From a virus, in IMG/VR virus record IMGVR_UViG_3300020583_000001, positions 1 through 62,366 of that record: a stretch of DNA of 62,366 bases; one strand, 5' to 3'. Below are positions 877 through 28,311 of the stretch, piece by piece. The notes under the pieces are model-generated. The model made no database searches, was not told where the DNA came from, and saw only the letters and a list, made by a program, of their open reading frames with translations. The position numbers and the translations under genes were made by a program. Every line of letters begins with the position of its first letter. The first letter of the stretch is position 1.

Positions 877-1331
877 GCACCTTGATTGAGCGGCCACCAC
901 TTCGATACGACTGGGAAACTCCCCCTAAGTTGTTTAATGCGCTTGATGCAGAGTTCCACTTCACGCTTGACGTTTGTGCTGACATGCACAATGCAAAGCT
1001 CGCCAACTATTACTCTCCTACAGAGAACGGACTGCTTCAGGCTTGGGCTGGAACGTGTTGGATGAATCCTCCCTATGGGCGTGGCATGATCGGGCCGTGG
1101 ATAAAGAAGGCTTATGATTCCGCGTGTAGTGGAGACGCTACGGTGGTGTGTCTGATTCCTGCACGACCCGGAAATGATTGGTGGAAATGGGTGATCAAAG
1201 CTGAGGTAAGGTTTCTGCGCAATCGAGTCAAGTTTGTTGGCGCGAAAACTGGAGCTAAGTTCGATTGTGTTGTAGCAATATTTCATGCTCATCTAGACCC
1301 CAGCGGAATTATGAAGGTGTGGAAGCCTTGA
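873..1331 (+). CDS. Phage DNA N6-adenine methyltransferase (Dam-type)
   Basis: The 152-residue protein matches the phage N6-adenine methyltransferase (Dam) family. It opens with the typical W-x-T-P-x-x-L-F-x-x-L-D-A-E-F substrate region (residues 15-28), then FTLDVCA, and has the catalytic NPPYG motif at about residue 67 followed by a hydrophobic strand (VVCLIPARPG). The family transfers a methyl group from S-adenosylmethionine to adenine N6 in DNA. It is the last gene of the rightward early arm, coupled to the gene before it by an ATGA overlap, and it converges on the late arm. No restriction nuclease partner is visible, so protection of phage DNA against host restriction is the likely role. 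Confidence 0.9.
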   Translation: MSTLIERPPLRYDWETPPKLFNALDAEFHFTLDVCADMHNAKLANYYSPTENGLLQAWAGTCWMNPPYGRGMIGPWIKKAYDSACSGDATVVCLIPARPGNDWWKWVIKAEVRFLRNRVKFVGAKTGAKFDCVVAIFHAHLDPSGIMKVWKP

Positions 1332-1383
1332 GAATAAAGCCTGACTAGTATTGGAGCGAGATGAAGGAGGTGCCTTGTGCGGC

Positions 1384-2469: not shown

Positions 2470-2492
2470 GTTCGTCCTAGCCTACCACGAAG

Positions 2493-4424: not shown

Positions 4425-4429
4425 GGGAT

Positions 4430-6079
4430 TTAGTGTGCGGCAGCGTGTTTGGCCAAGTAGGCGGCGGCTTCCTCGTCTGCGGTCTGCGGAGGCTTGGGCA
4501 TGTGCGAATCGCCGTAGCCGACCGCCGCGCCTTTCTTGCCATACTTATAAGCATCGTCCATGACATCCTTGAGCCGTGCCTTGATCGTTTCCAGTTTTTC
4601 CTTCATCAGCTTCGGCGAATCTACCCACGGATTAGGTGTGTGCTCTAGCGCCTTCTTTAACGCCAGCACGGATCGACTGGTCCCTTTGAGCACTGACGCG
4701 GCCTCGACTACCGAGCCAAGCGACAGTCCAGCGATATCCTTGCCCAGTGATCCTTCTGGGGATGCGATGCCAATGGCGTACTTAGCCCGTGGCCCCAGCA
4801 GGTATCCAGAGGAGTTATTATTCCCCAGCTTGAGATCGTTGATATCCTTCAGCAGCCCGTCGATCTGATCCATGACCGGGCTTGCGGCGATGATCGTCTT
4901 CTGTGCTTCGGGGATCAGCGTCACCGGAGCATTGCGCCCTTGGTCTTTGAGATATTTTTCAACCGCTGGCTTGTCCTTGGACGATGGCACCACGCCATTC
5001 TGCTCCCAGTCATCGGCCATCGCAGCTACGCGGCCCCCGCCACCTCCCTTGGCTGTCGATGGCCCTCTGCCAGACTTCGCGGTGGGCGGAGCAGGCATCC
5101 CACTCTTACCTCTCGGTGGAACCTTCTGTGTCGTCCGCGAGGATGTAGTCGTTCCTGTATCAGGATTGTAGGTGCTGGAGCTACTGCTGACCGTCGGCAG
5201 CGTCCCTGGAAGTATCTGCCCTGCATTCTCAACCGGCTCGCCATTCTGATCGAATACCTGTCCAGTCGTCAAATCCTGCGTGCCAAATAGCCGCTTGGTG
5301 GGATCATTCGGATCGCTATAGGTGACCGGATGTGGCTTGACCCGTGCCTGCGCGGCCTTAACCGAATATTCTCCTCGGACCTTCTCCTCTTCCTGCTTCC
5401 GCTGGGATGCGTCATCGAGATCGGATTGCGCGACCTGATGCGCCGACTCAGCCTGTGACCGCGCCAGCGACGTCCCTGGATCTTGCCCTGCTGGAGTGTA
5501 TCCCGGTGGTGGAGGCATTTGCGTCCCAGATGCGTCAGGCGAGGCGTTCGGCGGTACGGGCATCCCTGAGCCTCCCTTAGCCCCTTCTCCTCCAGCAGGA
5601 GCAGCGTTCTGCGGCGGCTGAGGCATCCCTGTCGCTGGTTGCTGACCCTGCCCACCTTGTCCCGGCTGTGGTGGGTTTCCGCCCGCTCGATGGTGTACGA
5701 GCTTATCGGTGAACTGTCCTAGCTTGCCGATGATCGACTTGTTCTCTTTGCTTACTCCCGCCGCCTTCTGCCATGCGTCGAATGCTGCTTTGCGCTGGAG
5801 TTCTAACTTCTGCCCTTCCGGCGTCAGCGTGCCATCCTTGCCCATATACTTGCCGGTAGTATCCCCGGCGAGCACCTGTGACAACTCTCCATAGCTGCGG
5901 TGATTACGATCCGCTTCGGCGACTCGCTTGGCGTGGGCGTCTTCCAACTGCTGCCGGACCATCGGCATTCCGCCGCCAGTAAGATTGACGAGGAATCCCT
6001 TGAGCTTGTCGCCTTCAGAGCCGGAGCCCACGCCAGCAACAGGCGTATCTGTCGGAGGTGGTGGCATGGAAGTTCCCAT
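4430..6079 (-). CDS. Putative internal virion/ejection protein, 549 aa, Pro/Gly-rich linker
   Basis: This 549-residue protein joins two helical regions (about residues 20-125 and 350-549) by a long disordered linker rich in Pro, Gly, Gln, Ser and Thr (about 130-345) that contains repeated MPxPPxxxPxG units. The start overlaps the stop of the preceding gene by one base (TAATG), which supports coupled translation. Position between two other helix-rich virion-type proteins at the end of the structural arm suggests a second internal or ejected virion protein. The sequence itself gives no family match that I can name. Confidence 0.8.
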   Translation of the reverse strand: MGTSMPPPPTDTPVAGVGSGSEGDKLKGFLVNLTGGGMPMVRQQLEDAHAKRVAEADRNHRSYGELSQVLAGDTTGKYMGKDGTLTPEGQKLELQRKAAFDAWQKAAGVSKENKSIIGKLGQFTDKLVHHRAGGNPPQPGQGGQGQQPATGMPQPPQNAAPAGGEGAKGGSGMPVPPNASPDASGTQMPPPPGYTPAGQDPGTSLARSQAESAHQVAQSDLDDASQRKQEEEKVRGEYSVKAAQARVKPHPVTYSDPNDPTKRLFGTQDLTTGQVFDQNGEPVENAGQILPGTLPTVSSSSSTYNPDTGTTTSSRTTQKVPPRGKSGMPAPPTAKSGRGPSTAKGGGGGRVAAMADDWEQNGVVPSSKDKPAVEKYLKDQGRNAPVTLIPEAQKTIIAASPVMDQIDGLLKDINDLKLGNNNSSGYLLGPRAKYAIGIASPEGSLGKDIAGLSLGSVVEAASVLKGTSRSVLALKKALEHTPNPWVDSPKLMKEKLETIKARLKDVMDDAYKYGKKGAAVGYGDSHMPKPPQTADEEAAAYLAKHAAAH

Positions 6080-6708
6080 TACATTGACGCTCCCAGGTCG
6101 AGTAATGTACTGACAGTTGTGGCGGCGTTATTGGCGTTCTGATTATGCAGATCATTCGACTCCGCCCGCGAATCTCCCGCCAACGATGTCAGCGACTTGG
6201 CCGCTCCAGTCCCAATCCCAAGCAGGTTCAAGGCCGCGCTCAGTTGCGAATCCCCCACCTTACTCGTTGTTCCGGCAACCTGTGTGGCCCCTTGCGCCGC
6301 TGTGGACTTCGCCTGATTTACCGCCGTATCGACCGCTGCGTTCTTATTCGTATCAATCTGCTGGCCGACCGCGTTTACTCCCCCGCCGCGAGCCGTCCCT
6401 GAATTAGCAATCTGTTTCTTCTGCGCATCGGCCCCGGCGTTCGCTGCGTTGACCGTTGGCGCTACTGCGCTGAGAGTCTGCTGCCGATTACCGCTCAAGA
6501 GGTCGGAGTAATACTTCGCTGGCGACGACAACTGCGAGAGGGCATCCTTTTGTGTTGCCTGTCCCGCCGTGTATCCAGCTTCAGCATTGGGCAGCGCGAA
6601 GTTGAACACATTGTTGAGATCGCCGAATCCCTGGAGTTGATTCTTGCGATCAGTCTTCGCCCCACTTCCCGAGAACAGGCTGAATATCGCGCTCAGTGGT
6701 GATCCCAT
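6079..6708 (-). CDS. Putative internal virion/ejection protein, 209 aa
   Basis: The 209-residue product is Ala/Asn/Gln/Thr-rich with predicted amphipathic helices and a Gly-containing N-terminus (MGSPLSAIFSLFSGSG), a composition typical of small podovirus ejection proteins. The ribosome site AGGAGACAA precedes the ATG at 6708 and lies within the last codons of the spike gene upstream (16-base overlap). It is the first of three consecutive virion-internal-type genes. The role is inferred from order and composition. Confidence 0.75.
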   Translation of the reverse strand: MGSPLSAIFSLFSGSGAKTDRKNQLQGFGDLNNVFNFALPNAEAGYTAGQATQKDALSQLSSPAKYYSDLLSGNRQQTLSAVAPTVNAANAGADAQKKQIANSGTARGGGVNAVGQQIDTNKNAAVDTAVNQAKSTAAQGATQVAGTTSKVGDSQLSAALNLLGIGTGAAKSLTSLAGDSRAESNDLHNQNANNAATTVSTLLDLGASM

Positions 6709-9065
6709 TTGTCTCCTATCTTAGCACTGGGGTAAAGGATCGTAGCCATAAACGCTGCGGAAGTGGGAACGCCGAAGGGTGGCGGTATTGGATCGTTCGC
6801 ATAACAACTGGTTTCATTGAAACTCAATACACCGCCAGTTCCATCCGGCACCCCGCCCATTACATGCAGAAAGCATTCCATTGCCGGGATTGCATTGGCG
6901 TGTCCTCCGAAAGTTGCCACCAGACTTCCGCCGCCCGGAGTGCAGTCCGAGTTAGAACTTGCTTGGGCATAGGAATAAGTCCCACCATTGCAGCGCCCGA
7001 GATTTCCGCTCGCCACGTCTGGTCCGGTAATCGGCCATCCCGCACAATATCCGGTTGTGGGATTTTTACCGAACGGCAGATTGCTATGACCGCATCCCGT
7101 ACCAACGCTTCCGCCAGTGAAATAAAAAGAAGATGGCATGGCGGACTGTCCTGCGCCCGTATCCCCAAGCGTCGGCACGGCGGTCGCAAAACTTACCGAA
7201 CCATTGCAAATCGAACAGGACCACAAGGAAGATGGAATTTCTGTCGTGCTGCCGCAAGTCGTTCCCCATCCCGTATCCGACGAGCTGCCGCACCACCGTA
7301 CCGTAGCCGTCGTACAGACTGGAGAACCGGAAGTGGGACACCCCGCCGTGATCGCGTCCCAATTCCCCCAGCGCATCAGTGTAGCCGGAGTTACGGCGTC
7401 CCAAGAGTTAAGCGTTCCGCATGAATTGTTGGTAGAGCACCAAGTCGTGTTGTAATTCGTGTTGCAGGAAAAGCCATTGTTGGAACTGAAGCCGCTGTTG
7501 TAGATCGATTGCGTTCCTGCCCCAGAAGTGCAGGCCGAAGCATTTGTCTGATAGACTCCGATCTGATTTCTGCCAGGGTCGCCCATAACGTTTCCTATTA
7601 CATTCTCGTAGCGCGAACTGGCGTAAAGAGCAATCGCGATGGTAGAGACCGTGCAGGTTGAACCGCCGCAGGAGTTTTGATTGCCGGGAAAAAGATTGCG
7701 AAACAACGTCTCCAAGTGATGCGTGCCGTGAACCGCGTCGGAGACGTAACCCAGCGAACTATTGCCTTCGTGCAGGTTGAAGTAATTACCGCCTGCGTGT
7801 GAGTAGTCCCCAGCGGCAAAGGCCGTGGCAAAGAACACGCTGCCAATTGTGTAGTTGTAGGCGATGACATTGCCGCCTGCGGAGCCATTGTTATTCGGGC
7901 AAGAGTCGGTGACTTGCTGGCAGATGTTGTTCACGAACACGCTGTCGGCCACACTGTTGAATTCTGTGGCGTAGCTCACGGCAGCGTGCGACTGGCCTTG
8001 ATAAAAATAGTTGTTCTCGTCCACGTTGTGCGAGACGATGATGTTGCTGATGTGCGCCCGCGACGGATAGACTCCCTTGATTCCCTTGACCCAGCATTTG
8101 TAGCAGTTGCTTACTTCGAGGATATTTGCTCCGGTTGCGCTCGTAGCATCAATCGACATATCCTCAATGCCGCGCTGGGTGGCAAACGAGGTTGCATACC
8201 AGACTTGCGGACTTTGCCCGCTGCGCCAGTTTGGCATGTATAGGCCGGGAGAGATAGTGATACATGGAGCCGTGAATGTGCAGGAACCGCCGCTAGTAGC
8301 TATATTTGTGACGGTGACGATCTGCTCTTGCCCTCGCGTGCAGGTTGATGTCGTGGGATTCCCCGAGTTGAGGCAAGGCCCATCGGTCCTCTGAAATCCT
8401 CCCTGGTAAGCGGTCGCGGTTGATGTGCCCCCGATGCAGGACGAGTAATAAGTAATCGAAGTGGCGCTCGCCGGAGGGCCGTTGCAGTTGAAGACAGAGC
8501 CTGGATCGGTGCCTTCATCCAGTTGATCGAGCACAAGCATTGAACCAACTGTTAGATTCGAGAGACTGCCGACTGCCGGAGTGGTTGAGCCGCAGTTGGC
8601 GATTGTGATGACCGTCGTGCCTGCCGTATATCCAGCGATCCAGTCGCACACATTGTCGGGATTGGAACTGGCGTTAGTCGTCGAACCTTGAATGCAGACC
8701 GCTGCGTAGTTATAGAGGCAGGCATTGTGCCCGGTCATCACGAGGAACGTCTGATTCGCTCCCCCGCCCCGCACCACTACATTGTCATGGCTGATGTTGA
8801 AGCCGCTCGTCAGGTTAAATGTTCCGTTTCCCAGGAGAACATATTGATTGTTGGAGCAGCCAGCCGTCGCGCTCGTTATCGTTGCTCCGCTGCCCGAGTA
8901 TGGCGCGATGGTCGAGCCGCACTGCGTCCATGAAGCATCGGGCGGTGTGATGCCAGGGAATCCAGCCTGTGTCCAGTCGATAGCACGCGACGGGTCGATG
9001 ATGCCGGACCATGCTTGGCCGAAGCAGGATGCAACCAACAATAGAAATGTGAAGCAGTGCTTCAT
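6693..9065 (-). CDS. Large beta-helix spike-like protein with export signal, 790 aa
   Basis: The 790-residue protein begins with a positively charged, hydrophobic export signal (MKHCFTFLLLVASCFG). VASC at residues 11-14 fits a lipobox, while CFG-Q could be an ordinary signal peptidase site. The mature part is rich in Gly, Ser, Thr and Asn with short repeating turns (GFNISHDNVVVRGGGANQTF at about 90-110), which suggests a right-handed parallel beta helix of the pectate-lyase or tailspike kind. Cysteine is frequent, which fits an oxidising compartment. The gene is coupled to its neighbour by an ATGA overlap. It may be a secreted depolymerase or a cell-surface or virion spike. The substrate is unknown. 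Confidence 0.8.
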   Translation of the reverse strand: MKHCFTFLLLVASCFGQAWSGIIDPSRAIDWTQAGFPGITPPDASWTQCGSTIAPYSGSGATITSATAGCSNNQYVLLGNGTFNLTSGFNISHDNVVVRGGGANQTFLVMTGHNACLYNYAAVCIQGSTTNASSNPDNVCDWIAGYTAGTTVITIANCGSTTPAVGSLSNLTVGSMLVLDQLDEGTDPGSVFNCNGPPASATSITYYSSCIGGTSTATAYQGGFQRTDGPCLNSGNPTTSTCTRGQEQIVTVTNIATSGGSCTFTAPCITISPGLYMPNWRSGQSPQVWYATSFATQRGIEDMSIDATSATGANILEVSNCYKCWVKGIKGVYPSRAHISNIIVSHNVDENNYFYQGQSHAAVSYATEFNSVADSVFVNNICQQVTDSCPNNNGSAGGNVIAYNYTIGSVFFATAFAAGDYSHAGGNYFNLHEGNSSLGYVSDAVHGTHHLETLFRNLFPGNQNSCGGSTCTVSTIAIALYASSRYENVIGNVMGDPGRNQIGVYQTNASACTSGAGTQSIYNSGFSSNNGFSCNTNYNTTWCSTNNSCGTLNSWDAVTPATLMRWGNWDAITAGCPTSGSPVCTTATVRWCGSSSDTGWGTTCGSTTEIPSSLWSCSICNGSVSFATAVPTLGDTGAGQSAMPSSFYFTGGSVGTGCGHSNLPFGKNPTTGYCAGWPITGPDVASGNLGRCNGGTYSYAQASSNSDCTPGGGSLVATFGGHANAIPAMECFLHVMGGVPDGTGGVLSFNETSCYANDPIPPPFGVPTSAAFMATILYPSAKIGDKWDHH

Positions 9066-10879
9066 GGAGTTATGGTCGGAGGGCAGATTCCGCCGTTAAT
9101 CATGTCGTAGCAGAATGCCCACTTGTCGTAATAAAATTTTCTTCCGCTAACTGTGGTCGGTGACGGAATTCCAATACGAGCCGCTTCCGGCAAGTCAGCG
9201 CTGGCCGATCCGTAGAAAGTTGCCAGTACGGTTCCTGTGTCGCTCAAGATTGTCATCGGGCTTGCAGGCTGGACGGTGTAACCGCTGGAATGAGGGTTAA
9301 CCGTCGTAACCGTTATCGTCCCTGACGCCGCCCCGCTGGTACAAGTTGTCGAGGTTGGCTGCACGAATTCAGCCGTCCCCGTACCGGCAATGTAGTAAGG
9401 CGCATTGGGATTAAACGGACAGCCAGACGCAAGCGTAATCGTGTTGGAACCAGCCGATAAAGAGGTTGGAGATGATGGAGATTGCGCTGCAAGCCCTCCG
9501 TTGACCTGCATGTTGAACTTTACCCATGTGCCTGAAGTGTAGGTCAAAGGCGCGGCCACGCCGGGATTCAGACCGTTCAAACAGCTTCCGGCTCCAGCGG
9601 TTGCGCACTCCAGCAATAAAGTAGAGCCATTGGCGATAAGTTGGATGTTGGGCGAGTCTCCCGTACCGTTGGTAACTGTAACTAGTGCGTGCTCAGTCAC
9701 CGTATCGGTCGCCAGCACGGTCGAACAGAAATCCATCGAGGTTGTTGTGGTAGATTGGATCATGTAAGGAAATGTGAGGCTCGCTCCGGGTAAATTCCAC
9801 TGCACGGTAGAGTTCTGCGAGCCGCTATTAGCCAGAGAGAATGCCAATCCAAGCGTGCTACTGTTCGGATAAGTTTGTCCACTGTAAAGAAATCGTGGAG
9901 GAGAGTTTAAGAGTGGATGACTGGCGCTGGTGCAGGAGTCTCCCGTGCTGCCTATATATTCAATGGAACTTCCGGTTGCATCCGTCACTGCGAAATTCCC
10001 GCTATTTGAGGCCGTTCCGTCGATGGCTGCGCCGAATAGCGAACTGTGTAGCGTGGTTGCGGTCGGTTCTACGGTGCTGGTTCCACCACTATTGTCCATC
10101 AGCGCCCACTGCGCAGAAGGAAGGACATTGTAGCCCAGCGCGAACTCAAAGACTCCAGGCTGTCCGTTGCCATTGGCATTTGACCATGTAGGCGTGGCTG
10201 GGGATGACGTGATATTGCTCAACCACGACGTTCCCGTGTAGTTATCGGTGGAATTGGTTGTCGAAAAATTCGTGTTCCACGGCGACGATACCGAACTAGT
10301 GTTACCCGATAGACCAATGATGCAGTCATCGGAACCGCTGATATAAATCGGCACTTGAACCAATGATGTGCTGGTATTATCGGCCAGTGAGTATGCGGAG
10401 ATGGCGTCGATGGCTGCCGTCCCAGAAACATCAGGGACGCGAAAGGCAAACAGGTAAGGGGTTGTTGCGCTGGCGCTAAAGTTTACGGTCAGAGTAGCAC
10501 CAGTGATCGCGCTGGCCGAAGTGATGTAATATGCAGATCGAGTTCCGCCCGCGAAACTGCCGCCGATATACTGGTTTTGCCAAAATGGGATTCGGTAGCC
10601 CGTCTGCCCCGTGACGCTCGTGATGTAGACTCCGCCGCCACTGGAGTTCTCTGACATCAGTACAAGAACATGATCGCCAGAAGCAAGGGTGACACTTGTT
10701 ATCCCAGCCGAACTCCCTGTGGAAGCGCTGTTTGAATAACGGACGATGGTCCCACAGGAGCCGATTATTACAACCGAGCCTCCACCTAATCCAGCTTTGC
10801 CGCCAATGCCTGCGTTGCCACCGATGCCTTGGGACCAAGCAAGCGAACAGAGAAACGGAACGAGCCAAAGTGTTTTCAT
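9062..10879 (-). CDS. Exported spike-like protein, 605 aa
   Basis: The ATG at 10879 overlaps the preceding stop by one base (TAATG). An in-frame extension to 10927 would remove the signal peptide from the N-terminus, so I use the shorter form. The first 16 residues (MKTLWLVPFLCSLAWS, then Q) form a classical signal peptide, followed by a Gly-rich collagen-like stretch (GIGGNAGIGGKAGLGGG). The rest is Ser/Thr/Gly-rich beta structure with a lectin-like look in the C-terminal half (about residues 270-600). No catalytic motif is evident. It sits between two other exported spike-like proteins and probably belongs to the same surface assembly. Confidence 0.8.
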   Translation of the reverse strand: MKTLWLVPFLCSLAWSQGIGGNAGIGGKAGLGGGSVVIIGSCGTIVRYSNSASTGSSAGITSVTLASGDHVLVLMSENSSGGGVYITSVTGQTGYRIPFWQNQYIGGSFAGGTRSAYYITSASAITGATLTVNFSASATTPYLFAFRVPDVSGTAAIDAISAYSLADNTSTSLVQVPIYISGSDDCIIGLSGNTSSVSSPWNTNFSTTNSTDNYTGTSWLSNITSSPATPTWSNANGNGQPGVFEFALGYNVLPSAQWALMDNSGGTSTVEPTATTLHSSLFGAAIDGTASNSGNFAVTDATGSSIEYIGSTGDSCTSASHPLLNSPPRFLYSGQTYPNSSTLGLAFSLANSGSQNSTVQWNLPGASLTFPYMIQSTTTTSMDFCSTVLATDTVTEHALVTVTNGTGDSPNIQLIANGSTLLLECATAGAGSCLNGLNPGVAAPLTYTSGTWVKFNMQVNGGLAAQSPSSPTSLSAGSNTITLASGCPFNPNAPYYIAGTGTAEFVQPTSTTCTSGAASGTITVTTVNPHSSGYTVQPASPMTILSDTGTVLATFYGSASADLPEAARIGIPSPTTVSGRKFYYDKWAFCYDMINGGICPPTITP

Positions 10880-13800
10880 TATGGTATGGAGTACTGTGCT
10901 GAAACTATAAATTGATCGAGCGTGCAAGTAGCTCCAGCGGTAGAGATATAAATTCCGATGATGTCTCCTGCCGCGAAGGTCAAAGTTTGCGCCGTGCTTG
11001 TTCCCGTCCCCTTGGTCTGCGTCGTGGAACCAGCCGTTACGGTTGATCCCACGTTGCTAGTTCCGTCGAACACGTTGAAGATTGGGACGGTGGTGCATGT
11101 CCCGCCTAACGATGTAACAACTTGCAGGTTTGTAAAGTGTCCAGCCGCGTTTGCGACCGTCGAAGCGAGGACCGCGTTAACGGCTAGCGTACCTAACACG
11201 CCGACTCCAGAACTCAAGGTGCCACTCGTGGCGCTGATCGTCTCCGTCATCGTGCCGGAGGAGTTAGTATACAGTGGGAATCCCGTTGCTGGCGCACCAG
11301 CAAACACGCGCAACTGCGAGGTCACCGAAGTCGGTGCCATCAAGCAAATCGAGGTCGCGGTATTGCATGGTGCAACGGCTGCGGAGGTTGTCCCTTGAGG
11401 AAAGTCAGCAAAGCCTGCCGTGGTCCCGGTGGCGGTAAAAACCGGGGCTGCTAATCCACCTGTGCCTGTATAGGTAGCCGTCGTGCCAGTGTCGGTCAGC
11501 AGCGAATTTGCCAGTAGGGTATTGCCCGAAGCGATAACAGCTTTAGGAATTACATTCGTTGTAGGCGCTGAAGCGAAGTTGGCAAAGATGGAATCTGCTC
11601 CATTTACATATCCGTGAAAATTCTTATTTGTCGTGTCGAAGTCAATTACTCCAGCCGCGCTAGCCGTGTTGGTCGTAGTCTGCGGAACCTTAAAAGCCGC
11701 TGTTCCGGTAGCCGCGCTCAGATCAAAGATCGTGTTAGCGGTTCCACTGAACGTGTGGGTAGCATAAGTAAGGTCTGCCGCACCAGTCAAGGCCGCGCCC
11801 GATCCGCCACTTACTGCCATTTGTCCAGATGTTGCCGATTCAACCGCGCAGGTAGAACCAAGAGTACAGGTCTGACCGTTCACGGTTGTAGCCGAGTTGG
11901 TTAGTGCGCCGTTCGGTATCCCCGTGAAGTTTGTTCCCGTCAGCGTTGGAGCCGTATTGCAGGAAAATCCAGTCGTGGTCGAGAATTGCATGACCCCGGT
12001 GCAGCCAGGGAATGCCGCAAAGGTCGGAAAGTAAATCCGGTCCCAGTTGGTCGCCGCATCGGAGTACACGAAGCTGGCGAAGTTGTTCAGGATCGTGCAA
12101 GTGGAAGCGCCATCGCACAGATCGGAATGGCCCGCGTTTGGCGTGAGTGTGATGGTCGCGCCTTCGGTATTTCTCAGAGCGAAACCGTCGTTATTGGTGA
12201 ATCCCGATGAGGCTAACGATGGCAGCGCCAAGGCGGTTCCTGAAGTCCAAGACAGAAAGTTAAATCGGTCGGTGGCGAGCAATGTAGCTGGATTTGTGGC
12301 ATCAATCGGAACGCCCGCCAACTGCAACACCGGAGCCGTGGCGGCTCCTCCTGACGGAGTGCTCACCATGAATTGAGGCACACCATTCGGAGTAGTCGGC
12401 GGAGTTGTGCTTCCAAGGGTGGAAGTGGTTGCCCAGTAAGCGGGAGCGTATTGAGTTCCCGTTCCCGGCCCGCCAGAACCACAGCCTGAACAGCTCACTA
12501 CCGTCAGCGCTCCCGCAGAGGTCAGCGATGCGTTCGATCCCAAGCTAAGAGTGCTGGCAGTGCTATTGATCGTTACCGCGAACGTGCCCGAGGTCGATCC
12601 ATTCAGATTGAGAGAGTTCGCATTCCACGCTCCGATGGTCCCGTCGAACGCCGTTGGCTGATCATACTCTCCGACCGTGCAGCCCGATGCAGGGCATCCC
12701 GACGCGGACGAGGTGATTGTCTGTCCGGCTGTGCCGTCGTCCTGCACGATCTTGGTGCTGTTGGCGATGACGCTGGCATTGTAGACGTGGCTGCCAGTCT
12801 GTCCTGAGTAGAAGTGGACCGCTGCTGTATTCGCTGCGCCAGCCATGTTGGCTGTCGATACGTTCTGGATGATAACGCCGTTGCCGCCGTTGAGCGAGCC
12901 GACTTCAATCCCGTTGTTGTCGAACTCGCAGTGCGGATTCATCACATGCAGGCGAAGGAACCCGTCATAGAAGCCGCAATCGTGGAATGCCTGAAAGGTG
13001 CCGATGGCCTTGCCGGTGACCGTGCCTTGATCGAAAGGATTGTTTCCAGAGTCGCCCAGGTTGCCTCGGATAATATCGTAAGCCTCTAGTACCCAAGGAT
13101 AACCCTCGGTGTTGGCCGCACTGGCGATATAGCTTGGCCCGGTCGTGCAATCTCCGGTATAAAACTGGTAATGCGCTGGTCCCGCTTCACCCGTGAAATT
13201 GAATGTCCGATCCCACATTCCACACGCGCTGATCGCAGCCGTAGCCGTTTCTCCGGTGCAGCCTGCCGAGCCGGGATTGCAGCCCGCCGATCCGCCGTTG
13301 TTCCAGTTGCCGGAGTTCAGCACCACATGATTGGCAAAATAGCGGTCACGTTCCTGCGTGCCGTTATAAAGAATGCCGATACCAAGCGGCAAGCCTTCGA
13401 GATCGACGCCAAAGTCCTGCAAGACGCTGCCGAAAGAATTGGTCTGATAGGAATCGTTAGTGATCTGTCCCGCCCATGACAGCACCGGGATCGCGGTTGG
13501 ATGGTAAATTTTATAAACCAGTCCGGCGGTCGCAGTTGGGCATACCACGCCGGGATTGTTTCCCTCCGTTCCCCAGTTGCCAGAGATAGTAATCGAAGTG
13601 GTCGAGGTGAACCCGGTAATGAGCGCGGAGCAGGCATTGGTTGCGTTGGGGCAAGTGGCGGTAAGGCTGCTGGAAGTCGCACAACTCGTCAGGTAGCCGC
13701 CGACCATTCCACTGGTGAAGGTTGTGCCGGAGCCAGTGACGATAGGATTGTTTCCCGCTGCAACACTGATGGTTCCGGTTGAATAAGGAGATGCGTCAAG

Positions 13801-16257
13801 GAACGGCCCGCCAACAGCTCGTGTGGTTGTGGTGGGATATTGCGTGTAAGCGCTGGGGCCACAAGTAGCCGCCGGAGTCTGCGGTGAGTAGCAGACGATC
13901 AGCCACGTTCCCACCGGCCCCTTGGATGCGCCGCTAGTCACGCCGATCCATTGCCGCGCACCGGCAGGCGTGGTCCACGGGGCGCTGGTCACGATCCAGT
14001 AGTTACCCCAATAGATTGTTTCCTCAAATCCCGAGCCTAGCCCCGCACTGATGTCGGAATCGGAGAATACGCATTGTTGCTGCGAGCCTCCGCCCAGACA
14101 ATAAGTGCTGCCAGTGGATGCGAACGCGCCGGGGTTGCGGGTATCAATGATATATCCAGGACCAAGGTTACCCATCAAGGTGCTTAGAGCAAGCGCGAAA
14201 TCGGCGGTCGCAACCGGGACGGTTCCGCACAATGCCACCGTGCAATCACGGATATCGAAGATCGGCTTGGTCTGCGCGATGGGAGCCGCGCCTACCGTAG
14301 GACTGGGAACGAAGAGGCTGCCAGCAGGGACGGTTAGTGCTGCGAGATTGGTTCCAGTTGTGAAATAGGGAAATTGATTCGCGGTCGGGGGGCCGCTGCT
14401 GGTTACCGTGCCGCTGCCGCTCGGCGCGTTCCATGTTCCGTCTCCACGCAGAAACGTTGTGCTAGATGGTGTTCCACTGGCATTGATATCGGCTACGGTC
14501 ACTAAAGCTGTGCAAACACTGGATAGATTTTTGCTGGCATCGGTGCAGATGGGAAGTGAGGCTGTCAGGCCGCTGTCATTGAAAAGCGGCGCTGCTACTG
14601 AAGTCCCGGCAGTGGCCGCACCCCCGATGCTGAAGGCGTGCGTGACTAAATTGTCTACAAAGAAATTGGCGGCACCATTGGCGGTATAGGTTGCCGCTGA
14701 TCCGTTGTACGACCATGCGGCGGTTCCATATAAGCGGTTGCCCACATCGTAAACGTCATCTACGATGGCGAACGTTCCAGCATCATGTTCCGATGCCATC
14801 ATGTTAACCGTAAGCGCAGTCAGAACATTGCTGCTTCCGCCGATAACGTCGATTCCATACTGGGTCTGCTCATAATTTAACTGCCCAATGTTCATCCCCG
14901 GCGAAATCCCGCTTCCTGTGGGATTATTGATCACGACGCAAACTTCATCGTAACCACAAATAAGGTGTTGCACGGCAGCGTGTTCAACTAACGTCAAAGC
15001 GGTAGTAAAGCCATCAGCCCGCAATGTTCCGATGTCGATCAGGTCGGGATTCCCGGCACCGGGAGCGATCACGCATACACCGCCTGCGGTCGGAACTGCC
15101 ACAGGGACGCTGCCCACATCGCAACTATTGAACCCCGGCATCGAGAGTTGGCCGATGGCTACTGCGTTGATCGCGCTGTAAATTGGATTAACCGTCCTAC
15201 GAAATGCGATTCCATTGACGATCAACTTTACGGCAGTGTAACCACTGTTTCCGCCCGTGGATGATCCAGCGCCCGCGATTAGATCGCAACCCGTGCTAGC
15301 GGTTTGAATCACCGTGCCGCCTTGGGCTGCCCCGTTATCTAAATTTAGCGCGGGCGTGAGGCCTTCGATGTCTACAACTGCGAATGGAGTATCGACGAAA
15401 GTTGCGGTGTTGATTGTTGGAACCAGAATCATCGAGGTTGCGGCATTGGAGGTCTGACAAGCGGTGTTTACATTGAATACCCCGGAGGGTAGAAGAATCT
15501 TTGCTTCGGTCGATATCGTAGCCGTGCTAACTGCCGCTTGCAGTGCAGCGCCATCATCGTGATAAACACCTTTACCTGCAGTGGTTGGCGCAGAACTGCA
15601 AGCCGGGGAGATAGTCAGATTCCCCGTCGCGACCGCTGTGATCTTGCTCACGCAATCACTCGTACTCGACCCCGGACAGTGTTGTGTTCCGGTTGCGCCT
15701 GCACCGACGATACACACTCCCTGATTTACTGCAAAGTCAGTGATCGAGGCGACATTAATCGAAGTTGTGGTACTGGCTGTACCAGAAATAGTAGTGCTAA
15801 GATTCGCGCCGGAAGAAGCGACGAGCGCTGACGATGGAATGGAAACAGTTGGATTGATCGGACCTGAAACTAGGTTCTGCGCCGAAATTGCCGAGATACT
15901 AGAAATGGTTCCCGTTCCGCTAGTTGCGAGGGATGACCCGCTGCCCACCGTCATTGCCGCTCCGGTATTCGTCCCTGAGCCAATCGCACTGAAGGCTGGG
16001 GCGGATGCCGATGATCCGGCAAAGGCCCAAGCGCTGCCGGTGTAGATGCAGGCGACTGCCGTGGTTCCGCCACCTACAGTGCAATCGCTGGCGGTTGAAC
16101 CATCGGATACCGTGGCGAAGGTTCCGCGAGACTTCCCGGTGGGTAGGGTGGCAACCGTGTAAGGAGTGAGTCCGGCGTTGCCGCCGCTGCTGCTCGACTG
16201 TGCGACGGCTATACCTGATAATAGAAGCGCGGCGAGGAATAGCTTTAAGTGTTTCAT
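10879..16257 (-). CDS. Giant exported fibre/spike protein, 1792 aa
   Basis: At 1792 residues this is the largest gene in the window. Residues 1-19 (MKHLKLFLAALLLSGIAVA, then Q) form a clear signal peptide with an AVA-Q cleavage site. After a low-complexity head, about residue 230 has DDGAALQAAV, a hallmark of the first turn of pectate-lyase-type beta helices in phage spikes, and a second beta-helix-like domain starts near residue 700. The C-terminal third resembles fibre shafts with repeated Gly/Thr strands. Cysteines are common. The start overlaps the upstream stop (ATGA). A long receptor-binding or polysaccharide-degrading fibre is likely, but a signal peptide is odd for a virion part. Confidence 0.85.
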   Translation of the reverse strand: MKHLKLFLAALLLSGIAVAQSSSSGGNAGLTPYTVATLPTGKSRGTFATVSDGSTASDCTVGGGTTAVACIYTGSAWAFAGSSASAPAFSAIGSGTNTGAAMTVGSGSSLATSGTGTISSISAISAQNLVSGPINPTVSIPSSALVASSGANLSTTISGTASTTTSINVASITDFAVNQGVCIVGAGATGTQHCPGSSTSDCVSKITAVATGNLTISPACSSAPTTAGKGVYHDDGAALQAAVSTATISTEAKILLPSGVFNVNTACQTSNAATSMILVPTINTATFVDTPFAVVDIEGLTPALNLDNGAAQGGTVIQTASTGCDLIAGAGSSTGGNSGYTAVKLIVNGIAFRRTVNPIYSAINAVAIGQLSMPGFNSCDVGSVPVAVPTAGGVCVIAPGAGNPDLIDIGTLRADGFTTALTLVEHAAVQHLICGYDEVCVVINNPTGSGISPGMNIGQLNYEQTQYGIDVIGGSSNVLTALTVNMMASEHDAGTFAIVDDVYDVGNRLYGTAAWSYNGSAATYTANGAANFFVDNLVTHAFSIGGAATAGTSVAAPLFNDSGLTASLPICTDASKNLSSVCTALVTVADINASGTPSSTTFLRGDGTWNAPSGSGTVTSSGPPTANQFPYFTTGTNLAALTVPAGSLFVPSPTVGAAPIAQTKPIFDIRDCTVALCGTVPVATADFALALSTLMGNLGPGYIIDTRNPGAFASTGSTYCLGGGSQQQCVFSDSDISAGLGSGFEETIYWGNYWIVTSAPWTTPAGARQWIGVTSGASKGPVGTWLIVCYSPQTPAATCGPSAYTQYPTTTTRAVGGPFLDASPYSTGTISVAAGNNPIVTGSGTTFTSGMVGGYLTSCATSSSLTATCPNATNACSALITGFTSTTSITISGNWGTEGNNPGVVCPTATAGLVYKIYHPTAIPVLSWAGQITNDSYQTNSFGSVLQDFGVDLEGLPLGIGILYNGTQERDRYFANHVVLNSGNWNNGGSAGCNPGSAGCTGETATAAISACGMWDRTFNFTGEAGPAHYQFYTGDCTTGPSYIASAANTEGYPWVLEAYDIIRGNLGDSGNNPFDQGTVTGKAIGTFQAFHDCGFYDGFLRLHVMNPHCEFDNNGIEVGSLNGGNGVIIQNVSTANMAGAANTAAVHFYSGQTGSHVYNASVIANSTKIVQDDGTAGQTITSSASGCPASGCTVGEYDQPTAFDGTIGAWNANSLNLNGSTSGTFAVTINSTASTLSLGSNASLTSAGALTVVSCSGCGSGGPGTGTQYAPAYWATTSTLGSTTPPTTPNGVPQFMVSTPSGGAATAPVLQLAGVPIDATNPATLLATDRFNFLSWTSGTALALPSLASSGFTNNDGFALRNTEGATITLTPNAGHSDLCDGASTCTILNNFASFVYSDAATNWDRIYFPTFAAFPGCTGVMQFSTTTGFSCNTAPTLTGTNFTGIPNGALTNSATTVNGQTCTLGSTCAVESATSGQMAVSGGSGAALTGAADLTYATHTFSGTANTIFDLSAATGTAAFKVPQTTTNTASAAGVIDFDTTNKNFHGYVNGADSIFANFASAPTTNVIPKAVIASGNTLLANSLLTDTGTTATYTGTGGLAAPVFTATGTTAGFADFPQGTTSAAVAPCNTATSICLMAPTSVTSQLRVFAGAPATGFPLYTNSSGTMTETISATSGTLSSGVGVLGTLAVNAVLASTVANAAGHFTNLQVVTSLGGTCTTVPIFNVFDGTSNVGSTVTAGSTTQTKGTGTSTAQTLTFAAGDIIGIYISTAGATCTLDQFIVSAQYSIP

Positions 16258-16700
16258 GCGATTATCAGTGTGACCAGAGCGCTGTCTCCAGCCGTATCTG
16301 CGTCAACAAAATATCTGTAAGGAGAGAACACGTTCCGCTCCAGCGGTGCAGACGACAGAAACAGATTCGCGCCAGGGGCGAGAGAGAACACCATCGCGCC
16401 ATAGTCATCGCGGTTACCTGCGCCTTGCACGCCTTTACGGACGATGTAGATATTACCGGTGTTATTCTGCACGCCATGCGATGCCCCAGCCTTGACCGCC
16501 TGGAAGATGATCTGCTGCACTGAGGGGGAATATTCATACTCGCCAGCGGTCCCGGTAGTGGTAGCAGTGTTCGGCGCGTTGACGCTCGCGGAATCGACCA
16601 GCGACATGATCGACACTGGAGTGCCGGGGGTGGCCACGACGATCATACCCAACGGCCAATCAGGTCCAAATTGATCGAGCATTACGGATTGAGTTGGCAA
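16254..16700 (-). CDS. Structural-type protein, 148 aa, TTG start
   Basis: I choose the TTG at 16700 because GGAGGA lies 4-5 bases upstream of it, whereas the ATG at 16682 has no ribosome site and an ATG at 16721 would lie in the terminator hairpin. The 148-residue product is beta-rich (IVVATPGTPVSIMSL, NIYIVRKGVQGAGNRDDYGAMVF) and resembles small virion or fibre-associated proteins, but I cannot assign a family. It is the first gene after the hairpin at 16719-16748 and is translationally coupled (ATGA) to the giant fibre gene, so it may cap or trimerise it. Confidence 0.7.
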   Translation of the reverse strand: MPTQSVMLDQFGPDWPLGMIVVATPGTPVSIMSLVDSASVNAPNTATTTGTAGEYEYSPSVQQIIFQAVKAGASHGVQNNTGNIYIVRKGVQGAGNRDDYGAMVFSLAPGANLFLSSAPLERNVFSPYRYFVDADTAGDSALVTLIIA

Positions 16701-16718
16701 TTTATCCTCCTCAAATAA

Positions 16719-16748
16719 CAAAGGCTCATGGACGAATCCATGAGCCTT
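16719..16748 (-). terminator. Leftward hairpin terminator
   Basis: GGCTCATGG (16723-16731) pairs perfectly with CCATGAGCC (16738-16746) around a 6-base loop. Read on the minus strand the stem is followed by TTTGTTATTT, as in a Rho-independent terminator. It separates the 95-residue gene from the fibre genes, so it probably lowers rather than abolishes expression downstream. A weaker hairpin (GGGC/GCCC) lies at about 16754-16767. Confidence 0.75.
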
Positions 16749-16801: not shown

Positions 16802-17089
16802 TTACACAGGTATCACCCAAGTGATATCGCCACTTTTACTATCGTAAGTGAGGACAGGTATCTTAGATAGCGTTGCCACACTTGCGCCGGATGTTGGTGG
16901 GATTCCACGGACGTTTAGGCCCGCTATCTTGGTAGTTGATGGCCCCCCAGCAGCGGGCGTAGCAGGCTTATCCTCCGCTGGTTTAGCCGCTCGTGTCTGG
17001 TCCTCCATCTTGTAAATCTTGTCGTACAGCAATCGCAGGTCTTCGTCCAAACGCTTGCCGTGGCCTTGGGGATAGTAACGCTCGGTCAT
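16802..17089 (-). CDS. Small hypothetical tail-region protein, 95 aa
   Basis: The 95-residue protein has a helical N-terminus (KRLDEDLRLLYDKIYKMEDQ, residues 12-31) that could form a coiled coil, a Pro/Ala linker, and a short beta-rich C-terminus. This layout is typical of small trimerising or adaptor parts of fibres. It is coupled to the glycosyltransferase gene upstream by an ATGA overlap and is followed by the terminator at 16719-16748. No family was recognised. Confidence 0.7.
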   Translation of the reverse strand: MTERYYPQGHGKRLDEDLRLLYDKIYKMEDQTRAAKPAEDKPATPAAGGPSTTKIAGLNVRGIPPTSGASVATLSKIPVLTYDSKSGDITWVIPV

Positions 17090-17880
17090 CGCGGCACCAT
17101 CGGATAGGAGTCATCCGGCAGGAAATAAACATTCCCGTGCTCATCCCAGTGTCCCGGCAGCACTCCGCCGTGCGCCAGGATTCGCATCCCGGCTTCTCGC
17201 ACCTTGCGGCAGAAGTAGATATCGTCGGTCATCTGGTAGTAAGGAGGATTCGACACTGGCGACAACAGATTGTGCTCCCGCGCCTGCTCTGTCGATTCGA
17301 TATCCACGAACCACGGCTTGGGAATACGGGCGAACGCCGAGGCGCGGATCATCATGCAGCCGGTGGCAATGCGCTCGCACTCGAACACATCGCCTTTCTT
17401 CCATTTCCAGAATGATCCCACCGATTCCCCTTGGAATACGAGCGGCGCGGAGGGATTGGTCTTGGTACCGTAAATTCCAGCACAGACTGCTACATCGTCA
17501 TCGGATGAATCCATCACCTGCAACAATTTATAGAGAGTGTCCGGTGGCGGCGGGTTGTCGTCATCGAGGAATAGCACGTAGCGAGTATTATAGCTTAGAG
17601 CTTGTTCGACCAGCTCGTTCCGCGCCCGGTCGCGCTTGGCTCCTTTGATCGTCAGGTATATCTGATTGGTATTGGGTGGGCATTGCAGGAGTGCGAGCGC
17701 AATCCCCCATTCCGGCGGGCAGTAGCGCCCTGACGATGGGATGCAGATGGCAACCGTGACCGTTCGCGGAACCGCTCCAGTCAGCGTCCACAGCACCGTT
17801 GCAAGCGGCTTATCCGCACTGCCATCCCTCGCACAGCCTTGCAGCATTACCTCTCCAATATCCATCAACTTGATCGTCAT
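17086..17880 (-). CDS. GT-A fold glycosyltransferase (family 2-like)
   Basis: The 264-residue protein has the start of a GT-A fold (VTVAICIPSSGR, about residues 41-52), a helix with K-R-D-R-A-R-N-E-L, and the metal/nucleotide-sugar motif LFLDDD (Asp 106-108) followed by NPPPP. A later MTDDIYFCRKVREAG segment resembles the acceptor/base region of family 2 enzymes. Such enzymes move a sugar from a nucleotide-sugar to an acceptor. It is coupled (ATGA) to the glycoside hydrolase gene upstream. It could glycosylate a spike protein or alter the host surface sugar that the spikes recognise. Both roles are inference. Confidence 0.85.
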   Translation of the reverse strand: MTIKLMDIGEVMLQGCARDGSADKPLATVLWTLTGAVPRTVTVAICIPSSGRYCPPEWGIALALLQCPPNTNQIYLTIKGAKRDRARNELVEQALSYNTRYVLFLDDDNPPPPDTLYKLLQVMDSSDDDVAVCAGIYGTKTNPSAPLVFQGESVGSFWKWKKGDVFECERIATGCMMIRASAFARIPKPWFVDIESTEQAREHNLLSPVSNPPYYQMTDDIYFCRKVREAGMRILAHGGVLPGHWDEHGNVYFLPDDSYPMVPR

Positions 17881-19826
17881 TCCTCCCCCACAATCACAAT
17901 CGGATTGAACACCGGCGATGGTATGGTCGGCTGGTTATCCACGTTGGTCACTTGTCCTGTCCCCTCGCCATTCACTATCAGAAAATCGCTGAAGCTGGAG
18001 CTGTCATAAATATACGCTGAATTATTATTGTTCCCTTGTGTGCTCAGATTCTCGCCGAACACCACCGAATCGGTGATTGACGTTGACTGCCCGGTAGCAG
18101 GCGCGGCGGTAAAGCTGGCTTGGTCAATGTAGTAGGTAATATTCCCGCCGGGACCGCTCGACCACAGATCCACCTGAAACTGAATCCCACACTCTCCGGT
18201 TGTGTATCCCGGCCCTGATGGCTGCTGCACTGGCACTCCCGGCGTTCCGCTGTACCAGTAGGTCGTCCCGTTAATAATCACGTAATCAAAATACATATGC
18301 TTGGTATCCCCGGCGATGCGGTGCGCCGACTGTTGCACATGCGTCCAGTTGCCAAGCGTGAATCCCACCGTCGCCTTGGTATCGATCCAGTGACCGTGCT
18401 GCTGATCCCATATCTGCCACTTGCCGCTGGCCTCGTTCCATTGCGTACCGAACATGTACTCTACGTTATCGGCGGAGGAGAACAGGAACATGTCGATCTC
18501 ATAAGAGCCGACTAGTCCTTTGCTGTCCGTGGGAATCCAGACATGGAAGTCGTTGGTGAAATTGGTGGCGGCGTTGTTGTATCCAGCGATCAGCACCCAC
18601 AGGATATTCGTATTCGGCGGTCCCGTCATCGAGAACTGCATGGACGCGCCATCGAGCGACGGGGTGGAATGGCCTGTAGTCTGGGAGTTATATGTCGGAC
18701 GCCCCGAGCCGCCGGGATTGCACGAAGGGAGATAGCAGGGAGCCTTCCAGCGCGGATTGGTCTTCCCTCCCGGCACGATGTCATCCAGGTTATTAACCGT
18801 GGTGGTGGCGGTCAGGCTATTGTAGAAATTGCTGTAAGCCTTCCCGGCGGTCGTTAGCGTTCCCGAGGAAAGTTGCAGGCCGTCTACTGAATCAACCGTA
18901 GCGTACCAATAGATTCTCGCAACCAGTGGATAAAGTGCAGTGTACCAGCTGGTAACAACACTGTTGGGATCGCCGGGAAGGGTGTTCCAGCCCAGTTCCG
19001 TCAGCCACAGAGTTTTCCCTATGTTGGCTCCGGTGAGAATCCCCGTGAACAGGTTGTATTGCAGCAAGGCGTCTCCGTTGGCCTCGCCATAAATATGAAA
19101 AGCCAGCACCTCCGCTGCCGCAATCGCTCCCGGTGCCTGCGCCATGTACGCCTGATACACCGACAGGTGCGTTCCCGAGTTGCCTACGCCCGTACTCGGA
19201 CCCTGCATCACGCTACTGGACGCTGAATTATAAGCAGCAGAAGTCAGTCCCACGGTGGAGAGGGCATGGGCTACGGTTTCTCCGGTAGCGGTGATGCTGC
19301 CTCGGCCCAGAATAATCGCCCGTGCGTCTTCGGACAGCCGCAGCATTTGTGCGTTCGTGCCCACCCATGCGTACTGTCCCGCGCCGCTATTCCGGGTGAA
19401 CTCATTCCACGGGCACCACCCCGACACAAGAATATCCGACTGGGTGTTGAAGTATTGCGCGACCGCCTTGCACCATTCTCGCCAGATCAGGTTCGCGCCG
19501 GTGCCATCGGAGTTGAGGTCGGTGGGTGGCGCACAGTATCCATCCCCTCCGGCTTGATTATCGCAGCCGGTGTTGGATGGCTGGCTGCTGGCCCATTGCG
19601 GCGTTCCGCCTAGTTCGTAGATAACGTCGTGAACTCCAGCGGTGCGTATTTTATTCAACCAGAACGCGAAGTTGGTGAATGAATAGACGCCTGAAGAGGG
19701 ATTGCACAATTGCCAGCGGCAGGTGTTGTCCCAGAATCTATACGTCGAGAAAGGGACGTTGACTGGATAGGTACTGCCGCTGTCGCCGACGATGTTCAGG
19801 CCGAAGAAGCTGGATTTGATGGCCAT
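17877..19826 (-). CDS. Glycoside-hydrolase tailspike/depolymerase (clan GH-A-like)
   Basis: Residues 1-340 look like a TIM-barrel glycoside hydrolase of clan GH-A: WCPWNE holds the Asn-Glu acid/base pair (Glu142), FHIYGE (about 243-248) fits the conserved His strand, and LWLTELGW carries the probable nucleophile Glu277. Residues from about 370 form a beta-sandwich, lectin-like region. Together this suggests an enzyme that cuts a surface polysaccharide. No signal peptide is visible, unlike the spikes further left. The ATG at 19826 lies 5 bases after the upstream stop. A GTG at 19850 is an alternative start. Neither has a strong ribosome site. Confidence 0.85.
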   Translation of the reverse strand: MAIKSSFFGLNIVGDSGSTYPVNVPFSTYRFWDNTCRWQLCNPSSGVYSFTNFAFWLNKIRTAGVHDVIYELGGTPQWASSQPSNTGCDNQAGGDGYCAPPTDLNSDGTGANLIWREWCKAVAQYFNTQSDILVSGWCPWNEFTRNSGAGQYAWVGTNAQMLRLSEDARAIILGRGSITATGETVAHALSTVGLTSAAYNSASSSVMQGPSTGVGNSGTHLSVYQAYMAQAPGAIAAAEVLAFHIYGEANGDALLQYNLFTGILTGANIGKTLWLTELGWNTLPGDPNSVVTSWYTALYPLVARIYWYATVDSVDGLQLSSGTLTTAGKAYSNFYNSLTATTTVNNLDDIVPGGKTNPRWKAPCYLPSCNPGGSGRPTYNSQTTGHSTPSLDGASMQFSMTGPPNTNILWVLIAGYNNAATNFTNDFHVWIPTDSKGLVGSYEIDMFLFSSADNVEYMFGTQWNEASGKWQIWDQQHGHWIDTKATVGFTLGNWTHVQQSAHRIAGDTKHMYFDYVIINGTTYWYSGTPGVPVQQPSGPGYTTGECGIQFQVDLWSSGPGGNITYYIDQASFTAAPATGQSTSITDSVVFGENLSTQGNNNNSAYIYDSSSFSDFLIVNGEGTGQVTNVDNQPTIPSPVFNPIVIVGEE

Positions 19827-19831
19827 TGGAT

Positions 19832-20335
19832 TCAGTAGTTGATCGTCCACACAAGCTGGAGAGTTTGGCCGTTGGAGTTGAGTGTCACGGTCGGTGCCAG
19901 TCCTGTTTCGAGCGCCAAGGTGCCGCCGCTGGCATAAGTATTATTGAACAGTCCCGCCATGCCGATTATCACCGGAGGAGCAGGCGTAGTGCCATCGTAA
20001 GTCCAGGTGTAGGAGAATTGCGACTGGCTGCTTCCGGTGACGTGCGATGGAGAAAGCGCGGCGGTGCGGATGAGCGTGGTTCCAGTGGCGATCTCTCCCG
20101 GCATCACCGTGTCGGTCGCGCTCGGGGTAGTGTTGGTGCTGAGTCCGATGTAGCCTGCGCCCTTGACCGATGGTGATGTGCTGAATAACTGCGCGTTCCA
20201 GAAATCCGCACCTGCGTTGGTCCGCAGGTTGTGTTGTTCGGAACGGAATCGCAATCGCCCGTCAGCGTCACGAACCTCGATCACCACATCGGAATGGATT
20301 CCCACGCGGTCGCTAAATCGTCGCCTTATCTCCAC
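19832..20335 (-). CDS. Tail protein, 167 aa, beta-rich
   Basis: GTG at 20335 follows GGGAGG with 5-base spacing and overlaps the end of the nozzle-like gene by 23 bases. The 167-residue protein has the pattern common in small phage tail proteins: an N-terminal strand region (VVIEVRDADG), YIGLSTNTTPSATDT, then IGMAGLFNN, Gly-Gly-Thr-Leu and a final LQLVWTINY. Members are usually minor tail or fibre-attachment proteins. It stands between the nozzle-like protein and the glycoside-hydrolase spike, which fits an adaptor for the spike. Confidence 0.75.
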   Translation of the reverse strand: MEIRRRFSDRVGIHSDVVIEVRDADGRLRFRSEQHNLRTNAGADFWNAQLFSTSPSVKGAGYIGLSTNTTPSATDTVMPGEIATGTTLIRTAALSPSHVTGSSQSQFSYTWTYDGTTPAPPVIIGMAGLFNNTYASGGTLALETGLAPTVTLNSNGQTLQLVWTINY

Positions 20336-28310: not shown

Positions 28311-28311
28311 A

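Follow-up and report, generated by a model that had tools for sequence, protein, structure and literature searches.

The window analysed here is the whole 62,366-nucleotide stretch of the IMG/VR virus record IMGVR_UViG_3300020583_000001. It carries on the minus strand a cassette of three overlapping late genes, referred to below as genes 1, 2 and 3, whose products of 1792, 605 and 790 amino acids (aa) each begin with a predicted signal peptide of the general secretory (Sec) type. An earlier sequence-only reading of the window had placed three neighbouring genes of these lengths here, and their coordinates were confirmed. The features of the cassette are listed below, with a hyphen marking each predicted cut.

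10879-16257, minus strand: gene 1, 1792 aa; 19-aa Sec signal peptide, QSSSSGG linker, mosaic body, fibre-type "FLRGDGTW" motif, and a C-terminal module common to other phages
16201-16257, minus strand: signal peptide of gene 1, predicted cut AVA-Q
9062-10879, minus strand: gene 2, 605 aa, ATG start; 16-aa signal peptide, then the Gly-rich tag QGIGGNAGIGGKAGLGG
10832-10879, minus strand: signal peptide of gene 2, predicted cut AWS-Q
6693-9065, minus strand: gene 3, 790 aa, 36 Cys; 16-aa signal peptide and a predicted pectate-lyase-like right-handed beta-helix of an exopolysaccharide-locus family
9018-9065, minus strand: signal peptide of gene 3, predicted cut CFG-Q

The starts of the three genes were set by stop/start overlaps: ATGA at 16257, where gene 1 overlaps the preceding small gene, TAATG at 10879, where the start of gene 2 overlaps the stop of gene 1, and ATGA at 9065, where the start of gene 3 overlaps the stop of gene 2. 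These overlaps suggest that genes 1-3 are co-translated late genes. A 621-aa call for gene 2, which used an upstream TTG start, was rejected in favour of the 605-aa product from the ATG at 10879.

The N-terminus of gene 1 reads MKHLKLFLAALLLSGIAVA followed by QSSS, that of gene 2 MKTLWLVPFLCSLAWS followed by QGIG, and that of gene 3 MKHCFTFLLLVASCFG followed by QAWS. The sequence-only reading had claimed export signals on all three proteins, and a rule-based prediction was indeed positive for each of them at the coupled starts. Each N-terminus has the positive n-region, the hydrophobic core and the small residues at positions -3 and -1 of a substrate of Sec and signal peptidase I, with Gln next to the predicted cleavage site, while reading of the three N-termini found no twin-arginine. 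When the prediction was calibrated on a 50-kb stretch of Escherichia coli K-12, it recovered 12 of 12 exported proteins and lipoproteins that had been pre-listed from general knowledge, and it made two further calls, gfcA, which is probably genuine, and yccF, a false call on a membrane protein. Tailed-phage spikes are taught as cytoplasmic proteins, and the sequence-only reading had likewise taken classical spikes to lack signal peptides; consistently, none was called in 16 annotated fibre, spike and tail-accessory proteins of the seven phages T7, K1F, P22, SP6, Mu, phiKMV and Bacteroides phage B40-8. Among shadow open reading frames (ORFs) 20 of 563 (3.6%) were called, and the chance of three neighbouring signal calls is about 4e-5 if ORFs are treated as independent. 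Chance or misannotated starts were rejected on these control rates together with the stop/start overlaps. The predicted export of the cassette proteins is thus well supported.

The bodies behind the signals are Cys-rich, as had been noted before, with 44 Cys (2.5%) in gene 1, 11 (1.8%) in gene 2 and 36 (4.6%) in gene 3. Across 13 phage contigs, including the window, the median Cys content was 2.4% in signal-peptide proteins versus 0.8% in the rest (p = 3e-7). Close to their ends, 21 of 24 phage signals have a small residue followed by Gln ([AGSF]Q).

Gene 3 and its cellular family

Cellular relatives of gene 3 were found in three Terriglobia/Acidobacteriaceae genomes, and in ten genomes of a 297-genome sample of the same phylum, the centre genome included. 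Most of the relatives with surroundings read sit in exopolysaccharide/O-antigen loci, as judged from a mix of Pfam matches and reading of N-termini. Ten neighbours were confirmed by Pfam, of the types flippase (Polysacc_synt), Wzy_C ligase/polymerase, WecG, UDP-glucose dehydrogenase, GDP-mannose dehydratase and GT2. The exceptions are the loci L057 and L060, which are not polysaccharide-like, and the ambiguous L055; in L049 the match is a protein of 2.9 kaa (thousand amino acids). Most of the cellular relatives also carry a signal, those of L049, L051 and L060 not being called. The PF12708 matches of the cellular relatives reach 33.7 bits in L012, 34.5 in L013 and 55.2 in L050 (cut-off 27); gene 3 of the window itself lies below this cut-off, and it was reached at 1.4e-69 by a profile made from the cellular rows alone. 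A mixed phage/cell profile matched the LKA1 tailspike (PDB 4ru4, E 1.8e-13), and also glucanases and alginate epimerases in the PDB. All 15 rows of the alignment keep H423, E433, D443 and R456, and all 8 Terriglobia-plus-phage rows keep C731/C754.

The mature starts of the phage and cellular proteins align, with QAWSGIIDPSRAIDW in phage gene 3 and QAWSGILDPSRAINW in the cellular protein L013, which argues for a cut of gene 3 at CFG-Q and speaks against a lipobox. The alternative raised by the sequence-only reading, that the 790-aa product is a lipoprotein with the lipobox VASC, is disfavoured, because the relatives keep the Gln at +1 and not that Cys. In the maximum-likelihood tree, the phage proteins and four Terriglobia proteins form a starred clade, in which the phage proteins occupy two separate places. 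This would agree with two or more acquisitions from hosts, although three phage rows make this a weak count. Gene 3 thus has in common with a family of secreted, exopolysaccharide-locus beta-helix proteins its homology, its mature start and the invariant H/E/D/R set. That gene 3 encodes a predicted secreted, polysaccharide-active protein is well supported, most of the cellular relatives being secreted and encoded in exopolysaccharide clusters. The earlier suggestion of secreted depolymerases stands to this extent for the 790-aa protein. The other two options of that reading were surface-attached proteins and an unusual virion assembly through the envelope, the latter being possible on the present evidence.

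Mosaic bodies and recurrence in viral contigs

Contigs with relatives of gene 1, gene 3 or the nozzle gene were drawn from IMG/VR, and they are referred to by L numbers as well. Large signal-bearing genes were present in L001, L004, L005, L006, L008, L010, L068 (the same contig as L009), L069, L071, L072 and L073; in L002 all signal-bearing genes were smaller. About 11 viral contigs, from several lineages, hence carry predicted signal-peptide spike cassettes. With the window counted among 13 contigs, 90 genes reach 240 aa or more, and 26 of these were called, one of them spuriously (the capsid gene at 2551-3900 of L073). The window's own lineage is that of L008-L010, in which the nozzle is about 69% identical, while L004, L071 and L073 are more distant relatives, with capsid proteins at 28-30%. 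L006 carries a contractile-tail baseplate protein, and L001 an integrase. The 9-kb viral contig L005 has five signal-peptide genes in a row (759-9023), and predicted exported phage proteins with modules of a kind known from secreted proteins of cells (ASH/HYDIN-like, CHB_HEX_C) are encoded at 14245-17496 of L004, 9475-11805 of L010 and 8903-12745 of L084. In a survey of the 297 Acidobacteriota genomes anchored on baseplate-J (phrog_6), none of the six stretches read had signal-bearing fibres beside the baseplate genes, which suggests that the trait is not phylum-wide, six being too few to quantify it. The spike part of L006 found nothing in the same genomes.

Between the gene 1 proteins of the window, L008, L068 and L010, only the signal and the QSSSGG tag are common, and the sequence beyond about residue 30 is swapped. 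Residues 30-595 of gene 1 are 95% identical to a protein of L004, which belongs to another lineage and has an unrelated signal (LNLCLSLFLLAIPVFA followed by QQGG), and residues 1465-1655 form a module common to L005, L006, L069 and L071-L073. The N-terminal piece that ordinary spikes conserve within a lineage is the domain that binds the particle. No such domain, as expected of a tailspike, was found after the gene 1 signal when the four proteins were compared; in the window lineage the conserved N-terminal piece of gene 1 is the predicted signal. The mature N-terminal tag of gene 2 similarly heads gene 2 of L069 (4362-6548) and of L005 (6010-6768), with the pattern QG[IL]GGxxG[IL]GGKAG[LA]GG right after the signal, and despite this common tag BLAST detected no similarity between the three gene 2 bodies. 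In the viral contigs searched, no relatives turned up for gene 2 or for the middle part of gene 1, genes 1 and 3 had no match in annotated phages (tblastn), and PDB searches with single sequences gave nothing credible.

Recurrence extends to phages in culture. Tunturi 1 and 2 are cultured 63-kb podophages on Terriglobia hosts (the acidobacterium Tunturiibacter) (PMC11924767). The window and these phages have homologous genes, in largely the same order, for the capsid, the scaffold position, the adaptor and the nozzle (31% identity for the major capsid protein and 40% for the nozzle). The nozzle match ties the window to cultured Acidobacteriota podophages, and the window virus, a soil virus, is probably a podovirus infecting Terriglobia (Acidobacteriota). 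In Tunturi 2, signal peptides were predicted for gp12 (1190 aa), gp13 (675 aa), gp14 (918 aa, annotated as pectin lyase), gp16 (149 aa) and gp17 (1280 aa), and Tunturi 1 is alike. The Gln at the predicted cut is residue 20 in gp12 and gp13 and residue 19 in gp16 and gp17. No signal was present among the tail-region proteins examined in Tunturi 3 and 4. In Tunturi 2, for which a subset of genes was scored, every product recognised as a fibre or spike among those annotated or examined has a signal. The main text of PMC11924767 contains none of the terms signal peptide, mass spectrometry and SDS-PAGE.

Neighbouring genes

The other features of the window that bear on the cassette are the following.

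16254-16721, minus strand: conserved small gene immediately upstream of the cassette and in overlap with the start of gene 1
17086-17880, minus strand: GT2-type glycosyltransferase between the nozzle gene and the cassette, present in L008-L010 too
20313-24812, minus strand: large protein read as tail nozzle, 1499 aa; 40% identity to Tunturi 2 gp32 ("virion structural protein")
26462-27652, minus strand: fourth predicted exported protein, 396 aa; signal peptide MRWLWLALVLLTVGCSA followed by QVIN, predicted cut CSA-Q
28312-28683, minus strand: small lipoprotein-like gene, 123 aa, adjoining an endolysin-like gene
32077-33462, minus strand: tail-fibre-type protein, 461 aa, 1 Cys, without signal peptide; N-terminal domain the same as in Tunturi 2 gp12

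The tail-fibre domain that starts signal-free in the 32077-33462 protein of the window, and in L008 and L009, is preceded by a signal in Tunturi 2 gp12. The latter has 20 Cys in 1190 aa versus 1 in the 461 aa of the window protein, the two differing in length. A second candidate for a signal-free spike is the 657-aa protein encoded at 17877-19850, between the glycosyltransferase and the nozzle, which had no PHROG, Pfam or PDB match and no BLAST match in the related contigs examined. The glycosyltransferase possibly modifies the coat or the virion. The small gene upstream of the cassette has a near-identical start in L068 and, by way of L010, a weak relative in Tunturi 2 gp34.

Two more genes had been described as lipoprotein-like in the sequence-only reading, which fits the gene at 28312-28683; the one at 26462-27652 has a signal peptide with the predicted cut CSA-Q. 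Within 27969-28683 the lipoprotein-like gene overlaps a small hydrophobic gene near the endolysin-like gene, and could be a component of a lysis cassette. A lipoprotein gene lies near an endolysin likewise in L001 and Tunturi 4, and the one in L001 has the same length and a canonical lipobox (by visual comparison only). Finally, a short protein with an endonuclease-like start ("AAFIDGEGCI") is encoded just before the capsid gene both in the window (36674-37174) and in L004 (3590-4129), with 29% identity between these distant lineages.

Possible functions and known systems

The relation of gene 3 to a protein of host slime-coat loci, taken together with the export signals, suggests that the virus probably sends the cassette proteins out to work on the coat. 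The explanation that we favour, with a probability of about 0.52, is that they are Sec-exported proteins acting, at least partly as secreted or surface enzymes, on host exopolysaccharide. The three genes would be co-translated with the tail genes, and each protein would be sent through the host Sec translocon, where a signal peptidase I cut would expose an N-terminal Gln. Folding would take place outside the cytoplasm, where the many Cys could pair as disulfides, and the proteins would act on the host's own exopolysaccharide/O-antigen coat, with gene 3 probably working as a lyase or hydrolase that the phage took over from an exopolysaccharide locus of a host. The virus would likely benefit from a matrix loosened for virion release and spread and/or from blocked re-adsorption. 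The signals, the coupling, the recurrence, the synteny, the clade and the relation to exopolysaccharide-locus proteins are supported by sequence, and we infer the export, cleavage, disulfides, substrate, action on the host coat and benefit in release or spread. The cellular architecture of gene 3, the lack of a head domain after the signal, and the presence in the window and L006 of other fibre candidates that have no signal speak for free enzymes.

Several observations weigh against this explanation. Export is predicted from the genes, by a heuristic written for this analysis rather than by SignalP. A site caller blind to Gln placed Gln at +1 in only 8 of 24 phage signals, and the [AGSF]Q pattern was also present in 16 of 29 Acidobacteriota-contig signals and in 6 of 11 E. 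coli signals; since it is common in E. coli and partial in Acidobacteriota, it does not point to the host and serves as supporting evidence only. The gene 3 tree requires two label changes, a result matched by 52 of 500 shuffles. No catalytic fold was recognised in genes 1 and 2, and the fibre-type motifs and modules of gene 1 fit a virion role equally. The AlphaFold2 models were too poor for fold reading, with a predicted local distance difference test (pLDDT) score of 39 for the 790-aa protein (7-row alignment) and 29 for residues 190-606 of gene 1 (2-row alignment). Hence, of the beta-helix or beta-rich, spike-like bodies that had been proposed for all three proteins, that of the 790-aa protein is supported through the PF12708 matches of its relatives, and those of genes 1 and 2, which had no family or PDB match, are putative.

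The alternative that survives best, which we regard as possible and hold only tentatively, is that the proteins are receptor-binding spikes of the virion, which are Sec-exported, matured by disulfides in the periplasm, and joined to the tails when lysis mixes cytoplasm and periplasm. It gains from Tunturi 2, where the fibre/spike-like gp12, gp13, gp14 and gp17 carry signals, where gp12 bears a tail-fibre domain that is signal-free in the window, L008 and L009, and where other spikes are apparently lacking, although this lack refers to a partly scored gene set. The motifs and modules of gene 1 would suit it too, and the short conserved Gly-rich mature tags (QSSSGGG; QGIGGKAGIGG) could serve as docking peptides. 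However, no conserved N-terminal virion-binding domain follows the signal, and the window and its lineage mates diverge right behind the tag. Moreover, the 790-aa protein starts like its secreted cellular relatives, the window has its own signal-free fibre candidates (32077, perhaps 17877), and in L006 a 338-aa protein read as a conventional tail fibre lies shortly before a signal-bearing gene. We consider it doubtful that there is a group of tailed phages with Sec-exported, periplasm-matured spikes added to finished virions at lysis, in which the signal replaces the particle-binding head.

It is unlikely that the proteins are not enzymes but surface adhesins or shields, which would alter the surface of the infected cell by superinfection exclusion, coat masking or aggregation. 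Gene 3 looks like an enzyme from its conserved His/Glu/Asp/Arg set and its pectate-lyase-like family, and the genes sit in a late structural block. Such a role could nevertheless explain the modules of secreted proteins (ASH/HYDIN-like in L004, an InlB repeat in L001, CHB_HEX_C in Tunturi 2 gp17 and L010) and the nearby GT2 glycosyltransferase gene, and the Gln-rule signal proteins of Porphyromonas gingivalis phages have been read in this way (PMC10367356). That the signals are relics of captured host secreted genes, or chance hydrophobic starts, without export is very improbable, for even though gene 3 is related to cellular secreted proteins and the calls come from a heuristic test, the signals precede unrelated bodies, survive sequence change and module swapping, and include the one on the Tunturi 2 tail-fibre domain, besides the chance estimate given above.

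In the open-licence papers searched, there was no report of Sec signals on tailed-phage spikes, and a survey of phage targets of diversity-generating retroelements states that the phage proteins have none of the signals found on their bacterial counterparts (PMC6199706). Phages do use Sec for other purposes, as in the signal-bearing endolysins (PMC7143992). The closest precedent is that of the Gln-rule signal proteins in Porphyromonas phages, which follow the Bacteroidetes Q-rule (PMC10367356). The window and its relatives add a whole cassette of very large spike-like proteins with predicted export signals, in several phage lineages apparently linked to Acidobacteriota. These proteins would be either coat-degrading enzymes secreted before lysis or part of a virion built outside the cytoplasm, and both options bear on how soil phages cross exopolysaccharide matrices and on carbon turnover. 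Acidobacteriota are among the most abundant soil bacteria. The recurrence across Acidobacteriota-type phages, including Tunturi 1 and 2, and the kinship with cellular exopolysaccharide-locus proteins go beyond the sequence-only reading; the kinship shows a possible source of phage coat enzymes, and with Tunturi 1 and 2 and their host in culture, the question is directly testable.

Among known systems, the beta-helix depolymerase tailspikes (LKA1 gp49, PDB 4ru4; P22 gp9; K1F gp17) resemble the cassette proteins in having a large, polysaccharide-active beta-helix, as in the gene 3 family, and a place among late virion genes. They differ in that those tested have no signal, while the window proteins have a predicted signal, a Cys-rich body and no conserved particle-binding head domain. 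The Q-rule genes of the Porphyromonas gingivalis Nixviridae likewise encode phage proteins with a Sec signal cut before Gln (PMC10367356), but these are five genes whose function is not known, whereas in the Acidobacteriota-type phages the spike-like proteins are very large and are encoded in a late structural block. The cellular pectate-lyase-like proteins of Acidobacteriota exopolysaccharide/O-antigen loci also have a signal peptide, with the same mature start and invariant residues, and the phage copies lie inside their Terriglobia clade; the phage copy, however, is longer and more Cys-rich, and belongs to a late viral operon with two other predicted exported proteins. Tunturi 1 and 2 share with the window the homologous, largely collinear virion genes and have a five-gene signal-peptide set of their own, which sits elsewhere (after gp11) and is made of other proteins than the cassette of the window.

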